NCBI RefSeq assembly: GCF_002931055.1
Contig: NZ_PSXX01000007.1
Span: 1-64,000, forward strand
DNA from: Pseudoclavibacter sp. AY1H1
GTDB taxonomy: Bacteria > Actinomycetota > Actinomycetes > Actinomycetales > Microbacteriaceae
Length of the DNA: 64,000 nucleotides
Reading direction: 5' to 3'
The translations under genes were made by a program, and so were the position numbers. This document shows positions 54,055 through 60,540 of the stretch, one piece after another (position 1 is the stretch's first letter; every line of letters begins with the position of its first letter). The notes beneath the pieces were generated by a model. The model worked only from the letters and a program-made list of their open reading frames with translations. It searched no databases and was not told the DNA's origin.

Positions 54055-55154
54055 CCGCCATCACCCTCGACCGCCTCGCGAAGGCGTTCGGCCGCCAGAG
54101 CGCGGTGCGCGACATCGATCTCGATATCCCGGACGGCGCCTTCGTCGTGCTGCTCGGACCCTCCGGATGCGGGAAGACCACGACGCTGCGCATGCTCGCG
54201 GGGCTCGAGGAGCCGACGGCGGGGCGCATCCGCTTCGGCGACCGGGTCGTCGCCGACGGCGACACGGGCGCGTCCGTGCCGGCGAGCAAGCGCGGGCTCG
54301 GCATGGTGTTCCAGAGCTACGCGCTGTGGCCGCACATGCGCGTGCGCGACAACATCGGCTGGCCACTCAAGGTCGCCGGTTGGGGGTCCGCCGAGCGTGA
54401 CGCTCGAGTCGCCGAGGTGCTCGGCATGCTCGAGCTCGACGGCCTCGCCGATCGCTTCCCGGCCGAGCTCTCCGGCGGCCAGCAGCAGCGCGTCGCCATC
54501 GCCCGCACCGTCGCGCCGAAGCCCGGCGTGCTCCTCTTCGACGAGCCCCTCTCCAATCTGGACGCGCGCCTGCGGCTCGACACGCGGGCCGAGCTCGTGA
54601 AGGTGCACCGGCTGAGCGGTGCGACGAGCGTGTACGTCACGCACGACCAGGTGGAGGCGCTTGCCATGGCGACCCACATCGCGGTGATGCGCGATGGGGC
54701 GATCGAGCAGTTCGGCACGCCGCAGGAGCTGCTCGATCGGCCCGCGACCGCGTTCGTCGCCTCCTTCCTGGGGAGTCCCGCGAAGGTCATGCTCCGCGGG
54801 GAGGTCGGGCGGGGGCGCCTCTTCCGGGGCGTGGCCCCGCTCGCCGAGGTGCCCGGCGTCCCGGACGGGGCGACGCTGCACGCCATGTACGCGCCGGAGT
54901 CGATCTCGGTCGGGCCCGGCGGGCTCCTCGAGTTCGAGGTGCTCGAGTCGACCCCGGTCGCAGGACGATGGATCACGACGGGCCTCGCGGGCGACGACCG
55001 CCTCTCGGTCGTCACCGACCGGGCCCACCAGCCTGGCGAGGCGACGCGCCTGCAGCCGCCGGAGCATCCGGACGCGATCTTCTCGGCGGACGGCTCGCGG
55101 CTCGCGGCCGCCGGGGACGCGGCGGGGACCGAGCTCGCGGGGGCGGCCCGATGA
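54051..55154 (+). CDS. ABC transporter ATPase
   Basis: 367 residues. Walker [10 protein letters not shown] (near 39-47), Q loop in [10 protein letters not shown], signature [14 protein letters not shown], Walker [16 protein letters not shown] and H loop [11 protein letters not shown]-terminal TOBE-type regulatory domain follows (about 260-340). It powers the preceding permease. The GTG at 54051 overlaps the permease stop, and its stop overlaps the phosphatase start, so the four genes form one tightly coupled operon. Confidence 0.95.
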
Positions 55155-55711
55155 CCGCGCTGTTGCTGGTCCGCCACGGCGCGACCTCGTGGACCGCCGA
55201 GCGCCGCCTGCAGGGGCGCACCGACATCGACCTCACCGCCAAGGGCCGGGCGGATGCGGTGGCGCTGCGGGATGCCGTCTCGGTGTGGGCCCCCTCCAGC
55301 GTGGTCGCCTCGCCGCTGCTCCGTGCTCGCTCCACAGCGTCGGCCCTCAGCGACCTCGAGCCGTCGATCGACGAGCGCTGGGCGGAGGCGACGCTCGGCG
55401 AATGGGAGGGGCGCGTGCCAGCGGAGATCGGGCCGGACTACGCCGAGTGGCGTGCGGGGCGGCTCGTGCCACCTGGCGGCGAGTCGGCGCCGGCGCTTCG
55501 AGCCCGCATCGAGGGCGCCGTCGCCGATGCCGCCAGGCGGCCAGGACCCGTGCTGGTCGTCACCCACGGTGGCACGATCCGCGCGGTCCTCGCGCGCTAC
55601 ATCGGTCTCACCGCGGACCTCATCGAGCCTGTCGCCGCGCCGAGCCTCACGGCGATCGACGTGCAGCACGACGGCTCGGCTCGGCTCGTCGCCTTCAACG
55701 TGGCGAGGTAG
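55151..55711 (+). CDS. Histidine phosphatase superfamily protein
   Basis: 186 residues. [11 protein letters not shown] carries the phospho-accepting His (RHG), [12 protein letters not shown] the Arg, GEWEGRVP the Glu, and [12 protein letters not shown] the second catalytic His. It is therefore likely an active phosphatase or phosphoglycerate-mutase-like enzyme, cytoplasmic. Its ATG overlaps the ATPase stop (ATGA). Coupling to an ABC importer and an RpiR (sugar phosphate) regulator suggests that the imported or regulatory ligand is phosphorylated. Confidence 0.92.
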
Positions 55712-55750
55712 CGAGCCGCGCCCCGAGTGTTACCCCCGGGGCGCGGCTCG
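55712..55750 (+). terminator. Hairpin terminator after the ABC/phosphatase operon
   Basis: Perfect 14-bp arms (55712-55725, 55737-55750) around an 11-base loop starting directly after the phosphatase stop. No T-run. Confidence 0.75.
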
Positions 55751-55788
55751 GTGGCGAAATGTCGGTGGTCGGCACAAGACTTGACGCC

Positions 55789-56841
55789 ATGACGAACAGC
55801 TCGGCAGGCCAGCTCCCCACGACACTCCTCGGCGACGGCCTCGTGACGACCGTCCAGGGCTACGGCGCGATGAGCCTCAGCGATGCCTACGGGCCCATCG
55901 ACGACGCGCAGGCGCTGCGCACGCTGCAGCATTCGGTGGATGCGGGCATCACGTTCCTCGACACCGCCAACATCTACGGCGACGGCCGCAGCGAGAGCAC
56001 CATCGCGAAGATCTTCCCGGCGCAGCGGGAGCGCATCCAGCTCGCCACGAAGTTCGGCATCACGAAGGGCGACGGCGTCGGCAAGCGCGGAGTGCGCGGC
56101 GACCGCGAGCACGTCCGCGAGCAGGTCGAGCTCTCCCTCTCGCGCCTCGGCACCGACCACATCGACCTCTACTACCAGCACCGCGTCGACCCGAACGTGC
56201 CGATCGAGGACACGGTCGGGTTCGTCTCCGAGCTCGTCGCCGAAGGCAAGGTCCGCCACATCGGGCTGAGCGAGCCGACGGGCGCCGAGATCATCCGCGC
56301 GGCCGCCATCCACCCGATCGCCGCGGTGCAGAGCGAGTACAGCATCTTCAGCCGCGACCTGGAGGCGCACGTCATCCCCGCCATCCGCGAGGTCGGAGCC
56401 GGGTTCGTGCCCTACTCGCCCGTCAGCCGCGGCCTACTCACCGACTCGTGGGCGGAGCTCGACGCCGTCTCCCCCAATGTGCGTGCCAACTTCCCCCGCT
56501 TCTTCCCCGAGAACCTGCCCGTGAACCGCGCGCTTGCCGGCGAGGTCGCCGCTGTCGCCCAGCAGCTCAGCGAAGTGCACGACCGCCACGTCTCCGTCGC
56601 CGAGGTCGCCCTCGCCTGGGTCTACGCGAAGTCGGCGGAGTTCGGCGTGCGCGTCTCCCCCATCCCCGGAACCCGCAGCCCGCAGCGCGTCGACGAGAAC
56701 CTGCGTGCCATCGGCCTCGAGCTGAACGTCAAGCAGCTGCAGCAGCTGGACGCGCTCGCCGACCAGGTCGTCGGCCACCGCTCCGCCGACCCCGCCTGGA
56801 CCTCCCAGGGCCGCGAAGAGGCCCAGCTCGCTCGCTCCTGA
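55789..56841 (+). CDS. Aldo/keto reductase
   Basis: 350 residues of the AKR barrel fold with the tetrad Asp58, Tyr63 (DTANIYGDG), Lys88 (LATKFG) and His131 (YYQHRVD). The cofactor region shows IPGTRSPQRVDEN, typical of NADPH binding. It resembles the IolS/YakC-type subfamily (GYGAMSLSDAYGPIDD). The substrate is likely an aldehyde or ketone. It is monocistronic, beginning after the operon terminator and ending before the CNNM leader region. Confidence 0.92.
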   Translation: MTNSSAGQLPTTLLGDGLVTTVQGYGAMSLSDAYGPIDDAQALRTLQHSVDAGITFLDTANIYGDGRSESTIAKIFPAQRERIQLATKFGITKGDGVGKRGVRGDREHVREQVELSLSRLGTDHIDLYYQHRVDPNVPIEDTVGFVSELVAEGKVRHIGLSEPTGAEIIRAAAIHPIAAVQSEYSIFSRDLEAHVIPAIREVGAGFVPYSPVSRGLLTDSWAELDAVSPNVRANFPRFFPENLPVNRALAGEVAAVAQQLSEVHDRHVSVAEVALAWVYAKSAEFGVRVSPIPGTRSPQRVDENLRAIGLELNVKQLQQLDALADQVVGHRSADPAWTSQGREEAQLARS

Positions 56842-56866
56842 CCCGGCGGATCCCCAGCTTGGCGAG

Positions 56867-56894
56867 TTGCGGGCAAACGAAGGGCAACTAGAAT
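56867..56894 (+). promoter_or_regulatory. Candidate promoter of the leader peptide/CNNM operon
   Basis: TTGCGG (56867-56872) and TAGAAT (56889-56894) are 16 bases apart. The -10 ends eight bases before the leader ATG at 56903, typical of leaderless actinobacterial transcripts. Confidence 0.6.
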
Positions 56895-56902
56895 CTCTCC
56901 TC

Positions 56903-56989
56903 ATGGAAGACCCTCCCAGTCATAGTCCCAAGCCTCTCGACGTTCCGGCCGAACCCTCGGCCGCCACAGTCTGGAGGCACCACGCATGA
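56903..56989 (+). CDS. Proline/acid-rich leader peptide (uORF) coupled to the CNNM gene
   Basis: A 28-codon frame beginning MEDPPSHSPKPLDVPAEP and ending in ...WRHHA before TGA. It contains six Pro and four acidic residues, concentrated at the N-terminus. Its stop overlaps the start of the CNNM gene by four bases (ATGA, 56986-56989). The -10 lies eight bases before its ATG, so it would be translated from the very 5' end. Pro/acid-rich leader peptides such as mgtL regulate Mg2+ transport in enterobacteria by ribosome stalling or dissociation. That this one does so is inference. Confidence 0.55.
   Translation: MEDPPSHSPKPLDVPAEPSAATVWRHHA
56946..56963 (+). promoter_or_regulatory. Stem-loop within the leader peptide coding region
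   Basis: CGGCCGA, ACCC loop, TCGGCCG: a perfect 7-bp stem inside the leader frame. Separately, CCTCCCAG (56912-56919) can pair with the downstream ribosome site CTGGAGG (56971-56977) with one bulge, so alternative folding could hide the CNNM ribosome site. Confidence 0.55.
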
Positions 56990-58365
56990 ACGAATGGGTG
57001 ATGCTCGGCATCGGCCTCGTTCTCACAGTAGGAACCGGGTTGTTCGTCGCGAGTGAATTCGCGCTCGTCAACCTCGACCGAAACGAACTCGAAAAACGGC
57101 AAAGCCGCGGAGAGAAGCGACTCGGGCCCACCATCAAGGCCCTGAAGATCACGTCGACGCACCTCTCCAGCGCGCAGCTCGGGATCACGCTCACGACCCT
57201 GCTCACGGGATACACGTTCGAGCCGGCCGTCAGCTCCCTCCTCGAGGAACCCTTCACCGGTTTCGGCGTTCCCGCGGGCCTCGTGCCCGTAGCGGGAGCC
57301 ATCGTCGGCATCATCCTCGCGACGCTGTTCTCGATGATCATCGGCGAGCTCGTCCCGAAGAACTTCGCACTCGCCCTCCCCAGGGCGACCGCGAAGGTCG
57401 TCATCCCGTTCCAGGCGCTCTTCACGACGGTGTTCAAGCCCGTGATCCTGCTCCTGAACAACACCGCGAACGCCATCATCCGCTCCATGGGCATCGAGCC
57501 CAAGGAGGAGCTCTCCGGTGCCAGAAGCGCCGACGAGCTGTCGTACCTCATCCGCCACTCCGCGCTCTCCGGCCTGCTCGAGGAAGACGACGCGGCCCTG
57601 CTGCGACGCACCCTCAAGTTCGCCGAGCACGACGCGTCCGACGTCATGACGCCCCGCGTGCGCATGGCGAGCGTGGAGGTCGACGACACGGCGCAGGCGA
57701 TCATCGCCCTCGCCATCGAGACCGGCTACTCCCGGTTCCCGGTCGTCGACGGCACCCCGGACAACATCACGGGGTTCGTGCACGCCAAGCAGGCGTTCGC
57801 GGTCGCCGTGGAGCGCCAGACCGAGGTCACCGCCGGAGAGCTGCAGACCGAGGCGCTCCGCGTGCCGGAGTCGATGGGCGCATCCGCCCTGCTGACCCTC
57901 CTGCGCGCCGAACGCCACCAGGTTGCCGTCGTCGTGGATGAGCACGGCGGCACCGCTGGCATCGTCACGCTCGAAGACCTCGTCGAGGAGATCGTCGGGG
58001 AGCTCGAGGACGAACACGACCGACACCAGACCGGGTTCATCCGGCGCGGCCGGTCCGTCACGTTCGACGCCTCCTGGCGCCCGGACGAAGTCCTCGACCG
58101 CCTCGCCATCGAGGTGCCGGAGGACGGCGACTACGACACCGTCGGCGGATTCATCACCGACACCCTCGAGCGTCTCCCCGAACTGGGCGACGAGGTCGCC
58201 ATCGAGTCGGGCATGCTGCGCGTCGAGCGCATCGACGGCACGCGCATCGTGCGGGTCCGCTACCTGCCCGACGAACCGGACGGCGACCAGAGCCTCATGA
58301 CGAACCAGGAGCTCGCGCTCGACAGAGCCCACGACCGAGTCAAGGAGGTGATGACCAATGAGTGA
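56986..58365 (+). CDS. CNNM/CorC-type membrane protein (hemolysin family) 1
   Basis: 459 residues. A DUF21 (CNNM) transmembrane domain (about 1-190) with [19 protein letters not shown] and [15 protein letters not shown] is followed by two CBS domains (about 205-335; [43 protein letters not shown]) and a C-terminal CorC/HlyC domain. CNNM proteins transport or regulate Mg2+ (and Co2+). Bacterial members have been described as Mg2+ exporters. GGAGG precedes the ATG at 56986 by eight bases. It overlaps the leader peptide stop and the next gene's start. Confidence 0.92.
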
Positions 58366-59401
58366 GTACCTGCCAGGAATCCTGTGGCTGTTCGTCCTCC
58401 TCATCGGCAACGCCTTCTTCGTCGGCGCCGAGTTCGCCGTCATCTCGGCGAAGCGATCCCAGATCGAGCCCCTCGCCGAGCGGGGCAGCCGCGCCGCGAA
58501 GACCACCCTGTGGGCGATGGAGCACGCGACGCTCATGCTGGCGACGAGCCAGCTCGGCATCACCGTCTGCTCGCTGCTCATCCTGAACGTCTCCGAGCCG
58601 GCCATCCACCACCTGCTCGAGATCCCGCTCGGGCTCACCGCGCTGTCGGCCGAGGCCATCAGCGTGATCGCGTTCGCGGTCGCGCTCGTGCTGGTCACGT
58701 TCCTGCACGTCGTGTTCGGCGAGATGATCCCCAAGAACCTCGCGTTCTCGGTGCCTGACCGCGCGTCGCTCCTTCTCGCCCCGCCGCTCGTCGTGGTCTC
58801 CAAGATCTTCAACCCGATCATCTGGAGCCTCAACACGATTGCGAACGGCGTGCTGCGGCTCTTCAAGGTCGAGCCGAAGGACGAGGCGACGAGCACGTAC
58901 ACGCTCGAGGAGGTGGCCGGAATCGTCGAGCAGTCGACCCGAGAGGGAACGCTGAGCGACACGTCCGGCACGCTCGCTGGCGCGTTCGAGTTCACCGAGA
59001 AGAAGGTCAGCGACGTGGATGTGCCCATCGCCGAGATGGTGCTCCTGCCGGCAGGCGCGCGCCCCATCGACGTGCAGAAGGCCGTCGCCGAGCACGGCTT
59101 CTCCCGCTACGTCGTCACCGACGAGCGAGGAGAGCCGACGAGCTACATCCACATGAAGGACGTCATGGACCTCATGGGTGCTGACGCCTTCACATCGCCC
59201 ATCCCGCAGAAGCGACTGCGGAGCCTCGTCTCCGTGTCGCGCGACGCGGAACTCGAGGACGCCATGGCGGTGCTCCGCGACCGCGGCGCGCACGTCGCCA
59301 AGGCGCTCGACACCGACGGCAGGGTGACGGGTCTCCTGTTCCTCGAGGACGTCCTCGAGGTGCTCGTCGGCGAGGTGAACGCGACCAGCGCGGCCGAGTA
59401 G
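58358..59401 (+). CDS. CNNM/CorC-type membrane protein 2
   Basis: 347 residues, a shorter paralogue of the preceding protein. DUF21 domain with FVGAEFAVISAKRSQIEPLAERG and VVFGEMIPKNLAFSVPD, then a CBS pair (VPIAEMVLLPAG, YVVTDERGEPTSYIHMKDVMDL, TGLLFLEDVLEVLVGEV), but no CorC/HlyC domain. The ATG overlaps the previous stop region by eight bases, so the two are translationally coupled and may form a heteromer. A terminator follows. Confidence 0.92.
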   Translation: MSEYLPGILWLFVLLIGNAFFVGAEFAVISAKRSQIEPLAERGSRAAKTTLWAMEHATLMLATSQLGITVCSLLILNVSEPAIHHLLEIPLGLTALSAEAISVIAFAVALVLVTFLHVVFGEMIPKNLAFSVPDRASLLLAPPLVVVSKIFNPIIWSLNTIANGVLRLFKVEPKDEATSTYTLEEVAGIVEQSTREGTLSDTSGTLAGAFEFTEKKVSDVDVPIAEMVLLPAGARPIDVQKAVAEHGFSRYVVTDERGEPTSYIHMKDVMDLMGADAFTSPIPQKRLRSLVSVSRDAELEDAMAVLRDRGAHVAKALDTDGRVTGLLFLEDVLEVLVGEVNATSAAE

Positions 59402-59422
59402 CCCACCGCTTCGATCCCGCAG

Positions 59423-59464
59423 AAGGGATGCTCCCGCTCGGAAACGGGCGGGAGCATCCCTTTT
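59423..59464 (+). terminator. Hairpin terminator with T-run
   Basis: AAGGGATGCTCCCGC (59423-59437) pairs with GCGGGAGCATCCCTT (59448-59462), a perfect 15-bp stem with a 10-base loop, followed by TTCC. It is the clearest rho-independent terminator in the window and ends the CNNM operon. Confidence 0.85.
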
Positions 59465-59517
59465 CCGCATCCGCTGCCGCATCCACCGCCGCTTCTCGCC
59501 GCGTTGCTCGCGTTTCT

Positions 59518-59547
59518 TTGACAGGACGCGTTCGGTGACGCCAGGCT
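59518..59547 (+). promoter_or_regulatory. Candidate promoter of the CPBP protease gene
   Basis: TTGACA (59518-59523) and CAGGCT (59542-59547), 18 bases apart; the -35 is exact consensus. The GTG start lies six bases past the -10, suggesting a leaderless transcript. Confidence 0.6.
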
Positions 59548-59553
59548 GGAACG

Positions 59554-60540
59554 GTGCAGACGACAACGCCGACCAGACCGTCCACCCGTGACAAGCTCTC
59601 CGCCGGGGTCTTCCTTGCGTTGGCGTTCGGCCTCTCCTGGCTGGTCGCGCTCCCCCTCTGGCTCGGCGATGGGCTCGCCAACCCCTGGTTCCCCGTCATC
59701 TCGATCGCCATGATGCTGACCCCGGCCATCGCCGCCCTCGTCACGGTGTTCGCCATCGAGCGCCCTGCACGGCCGTGGCGCGCGCTCGGCCTCGTGCCGC
59801 TGAAGCCGGCGGGCAGACTCATCGCGTATCTGGCGCTCGCCGTCGTCGTCCCGGTCGCCCTCATCTTCGCCGCCCTGCCCATCGGCGCCCTCTTCGGCGT
59901 CTACTCCATGGACCTCGTGAACTTCTCCGGCTTCCAGGCGATGCTCGACGAGCAGCTCGCCGCCGAAGGCGTCGGCAACCTCGAGCTCCCCCTCCCGGTT
60001 GTCGTGCTCGTGCTGCTGCAGCTCGTGAGCATCCCCGTCGGCGCGTTCCTCAACCTCATCCCCGCCCTCGGCGAGGAGCTGGGGTGGCGCGGCTGGCTGC
60101 TCCCGAAGCTCCTGAGGCTCGGCACCGTCCCCGCGCTGCTCATCTCGGGCCTCATCTGGGGCCTCTGGCACGCACCGCTGATCCTCCTCGGCTACAACTA
60201 CGTGGATGCGCCAGGCTGGCTCGGGCTGACCATGATGACGGGGATGTGCATCCTCGTCGGGGCCGTGTTCGCGTGGCTGCGCATCCGCTCGGAATCGGTG
60301 TGGCCGGCCGCGCTCGCGCACGGTGCCTTCAACGCCGCAGCCGGCTCGTACCTGCTGTTCGCCGCGGCCGGCGAGCGGGTCGACACGACGCAGGCCACGA
60401 TCCTCGGCTGGACCGGATGGATCGTGCCGCTGATCTTCGTGGCCGTGCTCCTCGCGACGAAGCAGTTCGCGCCGTCCAAGCCCGCGCCGACGCAGGTGGC
60501 GCCGCAGCTGCACCAAGGCAACCCGCAGGTGCACCCGTAG
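59554..60540 (+). CDS. CPBP-family intramembrane metalloprotease
   Basis: 328 residues, about eight membrane segments. The CPBP motifs are present: ALGEELGWRGWLLP (EExxxR), LIWGLWHAPLIL (FxxxH-type, W-H) and ALAHGAFNA (HxxxN). It is Rce1/abi-like and may act in membrane proteolysis or peptide maturation. A C-terminal Pro/Ala/Gln-rich tail is cytoplasmic or extracellular. It is followed 21 bases later by a DoxX-like gene on the same strand. Confidence 0.9.
   Translation: MQTTTPTRPSTRDKLSAGVFLALAFGLSWLVALPLWLGDGLANPWFPVISIAMMLTPAIAALVTVFAIERPARPWRALGLVPLKPAGRLIAYLALAVVVPVALIFAALPIGALFGVYSMDLVNFSGFQAMLDEQLAAEGVGNLELPLPVVVLVLLQLVSIPVGAFLNLIPALGEELGWRGWLLPKLLRLGTVPALLISGLIWGLWHAPLILLGYNYVDAPGWLGLTMMTGMCILVGAVFAWLRIRSESVWPAALAHGAFNAAAGSYLLFAAAGERVDTTQATILGWTGWIVPLIFVAVLLATKQFAPSKPAPTQVAPQLHQGNPQVHP

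Follow-up and report, generated by a model that had tools for sequence, protein, structure and literature searches.

What does the short open reading frame (ORF) that runs into a pair of CNNM transporter genes do in Pseudoclavibacter sp. AY1H1? The genes lie in a 64,000-nucleotide stretch of one contig, here called the window, for which an mgtL-like Mg2+ switch had been proposed with no direction of control given. An answer depends on how the locus is built, how widely the leader is kept, whether its peptide or its RNA is selected, and which known systems it resembles.

Architecture of the leader and its transporter genes

The frame of 28 codons is present as the original prediction described it, lacking a ribosome site of its own and ending in an ATGA over the start of the first CNNM gene (Table 1). 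The peptide includes 4 acidic and 6 Pro residues, and the 8 nt upstream of its ATG (CTCTCCTC) hold no Shine-Dalgarno sequence. The -35-like TTGCGG stands 16 nt upstream of TAGAAT, and both TAGAAT and TTGC are retained in the five members of the genus Pseudoclavibacter compared; this promoter received no call in a strict sigma-70 consensus scan. Across both strands of the whole window, the leader is the one -10-led short ORF that starts ATG-GAN-GAN.

Table 1. Features of the leader-CNNM locus, in window coordinates
Feature	Position	Strand	Remarks
-35-like TTGCGG	56867..56872	+	TTGC kept in 5/5 genus members compared
-10 box TAGAAT	56889..56894	+	8 nt before leader ATG; leaderless or near-leaderless transcript inferred
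Leader ORF, MEDPPSHSP...	56903..56989	+	ATG at 56903 to TGA ending at 56989
Conserved candidate gate, codons 1-6 (M-E-D-P-P-S)	56903..56920	+	most conserved stretch of the leader in the family
CCTCT, predicted partner of the CNNM Shine-Dalgarno	56933..56937	+	minimum-energy fold, window's genus
GGAGG, Shine-Dalgarno of first CNNM gene	56973..56977	+	within leader frame
ATGA, leader stop overlapping CNNM start	56986..56989	+	
CNNM transporter 1	56986..58365	+	CNNM, CBS and CorC_HlyC domains; 459 aa
CNNM transporter 2	58358..59401	+	CNNM and CBS domains; no CorC_HlyC match; 347 aa
ATGAGTGA overlap of CNNM genes 1 and 2	58358-58365	+	

Through the overlaps of the leader with the first CNNM gene and of that gene with the second, all three cistrons are joined stop over start. 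The lack of a CorC_HlyC match in the second CNNM gene suggests a two-subunit transporter. A strong Shine-Dalgarno-like AAGGAGG is found at the overlap of the two CNNM genes. Directly 3' of the operon, at 59421-59464, a strong G+C hairpin is followed by a short T run in terminator-like fashion; the strict scan did not call it, and an Rfam match to mir-3158 at this place is weak and implausible. On the upstream side, a 715-codon ORF (54694-56841) has an aldo/keto reductase domain limited to residues 389-689 and no Pfam match over residues 1-388, and its true gene may start further downstream. Among 80 named contigs, the best match is Pseudoclavibacter helvolus, with a CNNM protein 96% identical. 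The window's genome also carries a second CNNM pair, preceded by its own, different leader, MDDDHPPRSAPS... (MDDDHPPRS...), after TATACT (L194).

Spread of the leader and its specificity for CNNM genes

The window genome belongs to the Microbacteriaceae, a family of mostly soil bacteria. We gathered CNNM upstream regions from genomes of the family, order and phylum and from the 80 named contigs, setting CNNM starts by homology to the window protein. Of repeated regions, only exact copies were discarded, leaving near-duplicates and paralogues in the set, and four loci were omitted (L042, L057 and L058, which have no CNNM, and L103, which has too little upstream sequence). A first count required M[DE][DE], or M[DEG] after a -10 box, and included 30 loci (L031-L060) picked by the MDDPP pattern. 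It returned a leader in 170 of 220 distinct regions and 167 distinct leaders, 109 of them starting MDDPP; given its peptide criteria, the counts at residues 2 and 3 arise partly by construction. For the recount, the 30 MDDPP-picked loci were dropped along with any peptide criterion, and any -10-led ATG or GTG ORF ending at the CNNM start was accepted.

Such a short ORF was found in 173 of 210 distinct CNNM upstream regions, upholding the proposed coupling to CNNM. Acidic residues (D/E) occupy position 2 in 153 of the 173 and position 3 in 148; proline stands at position 4 in 123 and at position 5 in 136, and serine at position 6 in 110. The acidic and proline residues, whose conservation had been named as a check, are therefore kept at the very start of the peptide. 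The 37 regions lacking the ORF include many from distant phylum members; family members with no leader at CNNM are G029, G070 and, for its second copy, G020. Forty family regions (L214-L253) had not been picked by their leader, nine of them from genera with no MDDPP match and two (L252, L253) repeats. Thirty-six of these hold the ORF, with acidic residues at positions 2 and 3 in 33 and 28 and proline at positions 4 and 5 in 26 and 27. Of the remaining four, L222 and L253 lack a leader, the L221 leader begins with TTG (MGDPPSAHHP...), and in L224 the head is fused.

The promoter position and leaderless type proposed for the window recur across the family. TANNNT lies 5-12 nt upstream of the leader start in 164 of the 167 distinct leaders, the -10 box having been a selection criterion for a minority, and a Shine-Dalgarno energy of -6 or lower ahead of the leader ATG occurs in just 6 of 51 representatives. 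The leader stop ends 4 or 8 nt beyond the homology-inferred CNNM start in 130 of the 167, and at +8, +4, +1 or -2 relative to it in 153. A frameshift fusion of leader and CNNM was rejected, as their relative frame varies between genomes (4- versus 8-nt overlaps). Leaders range from 11 to 81 aa. Some lack PP at residues 4-5 (MDDDRRHVG, MDEHHHRRS), and DPPS is displaced in the Leucobacter leaders L153 and L158. In Microbacterium pullorum (L089) the leader reads MDDPPGS and then a stop (seven codons), directly after a run of seven C, and an AHSPAPSD-like stretch lies in another frame.

One genome, G073, has the head ATGGACGACCCTCCGTCT (MDDPPS) after TAGAAT and in frame with a 475-aa CNNM (MDDPPSAELLLLIAGLL...); in its congener G144, the leader (MDDPPSDRPWTA, 12 codons and a stop) stands apart from CNNM. 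Thus, the head is retained even when it is not a separate peptide, and the in-frame MDDPPS-CNNM fusion offers a natural experiment for a gate of the kind discussed below.

Named hosts outside the Microbacteriaceae include Glycomyces (Glycomycetales), Desertihabitans (Propionibacteriales) and Sanguibacter (Sanguibacteraceae). Coupled leaders of other types precede CNNM in other orders. Six loci (L331, L332, L333, L338, L342 and L345; family f80) carry a CNNM leader with a D/E-(A/T)-GCS core, such as MKDSDDAGCSSGRPTRAEAPAGVDR; with a GGAAGGG ribosome site upstream and a TGTAGT stretch, these form a separate leader family. Four more (L170, L173, L341 and L347; family f21) share a conserved MDGSSCSTCAAP... 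leader that overlaps CNNM and is Ser/Cys-rich in place of Asp/Pro. The observation made in the window is confirmed and extends far beyond it; judged from the sequences compared, the acidic-proline reading is one for the family and its near kin, not for the phylum.

Within this range, the head is largely a mark of CNNM genes. In 40 genomes (one per genus), the pattern ATGGAYGAYCCNCC gave 31 matches, against 9 for the reversed-pattern control, and 27 of the 30 loci examined hold CNNM. Across 150 family genomes, TATACT-N6-11-ATGGANGAN gave 52 matches in 49 genomes, against a single match for the reversed pattern, and 47 of the 52 are at CNNM genes: among 30 loci examined, 27 are CNNM leaders and 3 start ORFs of at least 150 aa, and 20 of the remaining 22 matches adjoin a CNNM match by coordinates alone. 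With TATACT fixed as its -10 box, this pattern misses many leaders, including that of the window (TAGAAT). All 145 distinct -10-led short ORFs starting ATGGANGAN in 1.18 Mb of loci, mostly chosen for CNNM, are CNNM leaders.

Other Mg2+ transporter genes of relatives gave a different result. None of 43 loci (13 MgtE, 30 CorA) holds a -10-led M[DE][DE] short ORF, whether scanned within 260 nt on both sides of the upstream stop or over the whole locus, and a leader common to Mg2+ genes was not found at these loci; an ORF of the form MGPG..., behind a -10 box, is present at one CorA locus. A class-wide search for MDDPP gave 44 matches in 33 of 118 genomes. Of the 30 loci examined, 2 have CNNM (L298 and L300, both from family members), and the matches at G172:C2 and G041:C10 are known CNNM leaders by coordinates; beyond Micrococcales, MDDPP in this search is at chance level.

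Selection on the peptide, RNA structure and competing readings

We compared substitutions between nearest relatives, pairs that are not phylogenetically independent. Leader codons 2-6 in 117 pairs (585 codon comparisons) show 61 nonsynonymous and 131 synonymous differences, a ratio about that of the CNNM protein in the same comparison (521 and 1237 in 4680 codon comparisons). For codons 7-12 the figures are 44 and 20 (252 comparisons). Ser6 is drawn from two unrelated serine boxes (TCT in 56, AGT in 34 and TCA in 17 of 167 leaders). The substitution ratio at codons 2-6 and the two serine boxes together indicate that the amino acids are selected.

Codon choice within the head is also uneven. 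Among the 51 representatives used for the codon and structure tests, an A or T third base is found in 75% at codon 4, 43% at codon 5, 92% at codon 6 and 51-55% at codons 7-8; the values are 33% at codon 2, 16% at codon 3, 32% in leader tails and 15% in CNNM. Of the 167 leaders, 100 use CCT at codon 4. This distribution suggests that rare codons are placed right behind the acidic pair. At many loci, codons 7-9 (56921-56929 in the window) spell a weaker second motif, His-x-Pro (HxP), frequently encoded by rare codons as CAT-AGT or CAT-AGA and, in other orders, as TGT-AGT. Cys replaces His in Microbacterium-type leaders, and the CAT/TGT-AGT codon pair recurs across orders; the motif could be a peptide or a nucleotide constraint.

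The conserved overlap of leader and CNNM would also suit a constitutive feeder or throttle, in which the leaderless leader loads ribosomes that pass to CNNM by termination and reinitiation, with MDDPPS setting a low, fixed flux and no Mg2+ being sensed. In mycobacteria, small ORFs coupled by RTGA on leaderless transcripts are over-represented, and coupling is sometimes conserved without the peptide (PMC4633059). With a pure feeder, the peptide would be free to vary, yet codons 2-6 evolve at a ratio resembling that of the CNNM protein, and the head is nearly confined to one cation-transporter family. We regard this explanation as unlikely, though one to be taken seriously.

Another explanation starts from the DPP(S) sequence and its rare codons (CCT, TCT and AGT at codons 4 and 6), which might make the ribosome pause at polyproline or slow codons and so report on EF-P, charged tRNA or the general state of the ribosome, not on Mg2+. 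However, conservation is somewhat higher for the acidic residues at positions 2/3 than for the prolines at 4/5, both among the 173 recounted leaders and, as a similar trend, among the 36 from unselected regions, and several leaders have no PP, making a pause of this kind improbable. A role in trans, either for the peptide as a small protein or for its His/Cys residues as metal ligands, is more doubtful still. The HxP motif and its Cys variant would fit such a role, but beyond residue 6 both length and sequence vary widely, leaders can be as short as 11 aa (MDDPPSAGAAR), and in one genome CNNM itself carries the head.

The remaining alternative places the switch in the RNA, where the original prediction fared less well. 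It had named a stem-loop in the frame and a pairing of CCTCCCAG with CTGGAGG. The stem-loop (CGGCCGAACCCTCGGCCG) does exist in the window leader, but its perfect CGGCCG stem occurs in just three of the five genus members and is imperfect in the other two, so a conserved in-frame stem-loop was rejected. Although CCTCC(C/T)AG is able to pair with CTGGAGG around a bulge, matched head-tail duplexes at 35 of the representative loci paired no better than mismatched ones (-17.5 versus -17.7 kcal/mol, P=0.64), and the pairing switch is not supported. In the predicted minimum-energy fold, the CNNM Shine-Dalgarno pairs with the CCTCT segment (Table 1) in five of five genus members, which offer no informative variation; a ribosome passing through the leader would be expected to open this pairing.

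Folding is not unusual across the 51 loci (mean z of -0.29, below -2 in 5), and accessibility at the CNNM start falls only a little below that of internal control windows (0.322 versus 0.372, P=0.013, 39 of these loci). A good Shine-Dalgarno of their own is found in 38 of the 51 CNNM genes, making independent initiation possible. No covariance-model match to the M-box (ykoK) riboswitch was found in 55500-60500 at E <= 1, and a known RNA family was rejected, as the two Rfam matches (mir-3158, sR53) are far under gathering scores and implausible. C/(C+G) is 0.58 in leaders and 0.55 in CNNM; as the leaders are just mildly C-rich, we make no claim for a Rho site. Least probable of all is an RNA switch based on masking of the CNNM ribosome site by the CCTCC in the proline codons. 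The complementarity to GGAGG, the frequent CCT at codon 4 and the paired Shine-Dalgarno of the window's genus (though paired with another segment) could be cited for it, but matched head-tail duplexes pair no better than mismatched ones, folding is ordinary, some heads have no CCTCC, and there are just two Rfam matches, both weak and implausible.

A candidate leader-peptide gate and its known counterparts

Set against these alternatives, the explanation toward which we lean, by a modest degree, is a cis-acting leader-peptide gate on the operon of CNNM, a Mg2+/cation transporter and probable exporter. The predicted promoter would place the transcript start at or next to the ATG, M-[D/E]-D-P-P-S is selected, and the stop overlaps the CNNM start. 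From known systems we infer ribosome loading, drop-off and a Mg2+ response at the leader. In such a gate, 70S ribosomes would load on the leaderless ATG and would at once polymerize two acidic residues and then prolines, on rare codons, with the exit tunnel still empty. This would be the setting in which Escherichia coli ribosomes fall apart (intrinsic ribosome destabilization). With ample Mg2+, the ribosome would survive, reach the leader stop, open the CNNM ribosome site and reinitiate on CNNM; at low Mg2+, it would drop off near codons 3-6 and the exporter would not be made.

The relatives MpfA and YhdP behave as Mg2+ exporters, although the direction of transport is disputed for the CNNM family (PMC8242095). 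With homologues reported as exporters and the stop overlapping the start, high Mg2+ would be expected to switch the operon ON, opposite to mgtL. Of the mgtL-like switch first proposed, the leader, its acidic and proline start, the coupling and the promoter position are supported by comparison; the RNA pairing and the stem-loop are not.

We further propose, tentatively and at slightly less than even confidence, a family-wide Mg2+ thermostat, extending with variant peptides to the wider Actinomycetes, in which the stability of the ribosome over the first five residues of a leaderless leader would be the sensor and the CNNM exporter would be ON at ample Mg2+, the reverse of the MgtL sign; in one species, the gate would sit on the N terminus of the exporter itself. 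If true, Mg2+ sensing by the nascent chain would have evolved convergently outside the Proteobacteria, with no need of a structured RNA sensor. Ribosome-based Mg2+ sensing would then not be just enterobacterial, having arisen in Actinomycetes in a very simple form with no 5' UTR, no riboswitch and six codons. Leaderless mRNAs are common in Actinomycetes, and their coupled small ORFs would gain a regulatory role. Bacterial CNNM proteins would be made at Mg2+ excess, which bears on the dispute over export versus import. Among the matches listed from a mainly open-access literature, none describes a leader in front of CNNM genes in Actinomycetes.

The closest precedents include enterobacterial leaders. 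Early acidic and proline residues can destabilize E. coli ribosomes (PMC11282234, PMC8092293), and MgtL, with its EPDP sequence, drops ribosomes at low Mg2+ (PMC11282234). Like MgtL, the leader of mgtA in Enterobacteria (PMC11282234), the present leader is a short ORF that precedes the gene for a Mg2+ transporter and has acidic residues and prolines at its very N terminus (M[D/E]DPPS). Drop-off is the sensor in MgtL as described (PMC11282234) and would be so here by analogy. MgtL controls an importer by way of RNA conformation and a Rho site, and drop-off turns the gene ON (PMC11282234); the short ORF described here is of leaderless type and overlaps its target, that target is a CNNM probable exporter with no conserved head-tail structure, and drop-off should turn it OFF.

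In Salmonella, the 8-aa mgtQ ORF upstream of mgtB controls translation of a Mg2+ transporter through destabilizing Asp2 and Glu5 (PMC8092293), a likeness in both the early acidic residues of a short ORF and the type of target. As described, mgtQ differs in being intergenic, with a strong Shine-Dalgarno of its own and alternative stem-loops (PMC8092293); no such stem-loops over the target ribosome site are conserved across the loci tested here. The M-box riboswitch with an upstream ORF at M. tuberculosis pe20 is likewise a Mg2+-linked upstream ORF in an Actinomycete, but its sensor is a structured RNA (PMC12810186), and the present locus has no M-box match.

Expected sign and target have counterparts in corC and mgpA of Salmonella, the expression of which is raised at high Mg2+ (PMC12421838). 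The same paper cites the N terminus of CorC as a destabilizing sequence, which resembles the MDDPPS-CNNM fusion. It also cites a drop in MgpA translation when the YoaL start is missing, leaving a Mg2+ role of YoaL as a hypothesis. In both cases a leader overlaps the start of a CorC-domain cation gene, and the one behind YoaL, mgpA (yoaE) of Enterobacteria, is raised at high Mg2+ (PMC12421838); MgpA differs in having a TerC rather than a CNNM membrane domain (PMC12421838), and YoaL is likened by description, not by sequence. In architecture, the leader resembles the leaderless coupled small ORFs of mycobacteria, which share the RTG start, the short frame and the RTGA overlap (PMC4633059): a -10 box in 164 of 167 leaders predicts the 5' end, and the stop lies at or over the next start in 153 of 167. 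The peptide of the coupled mycobacterial example described is not conserved (PMC4633059), whereas here the first six residues are strongly selected and belong to one transporter family.
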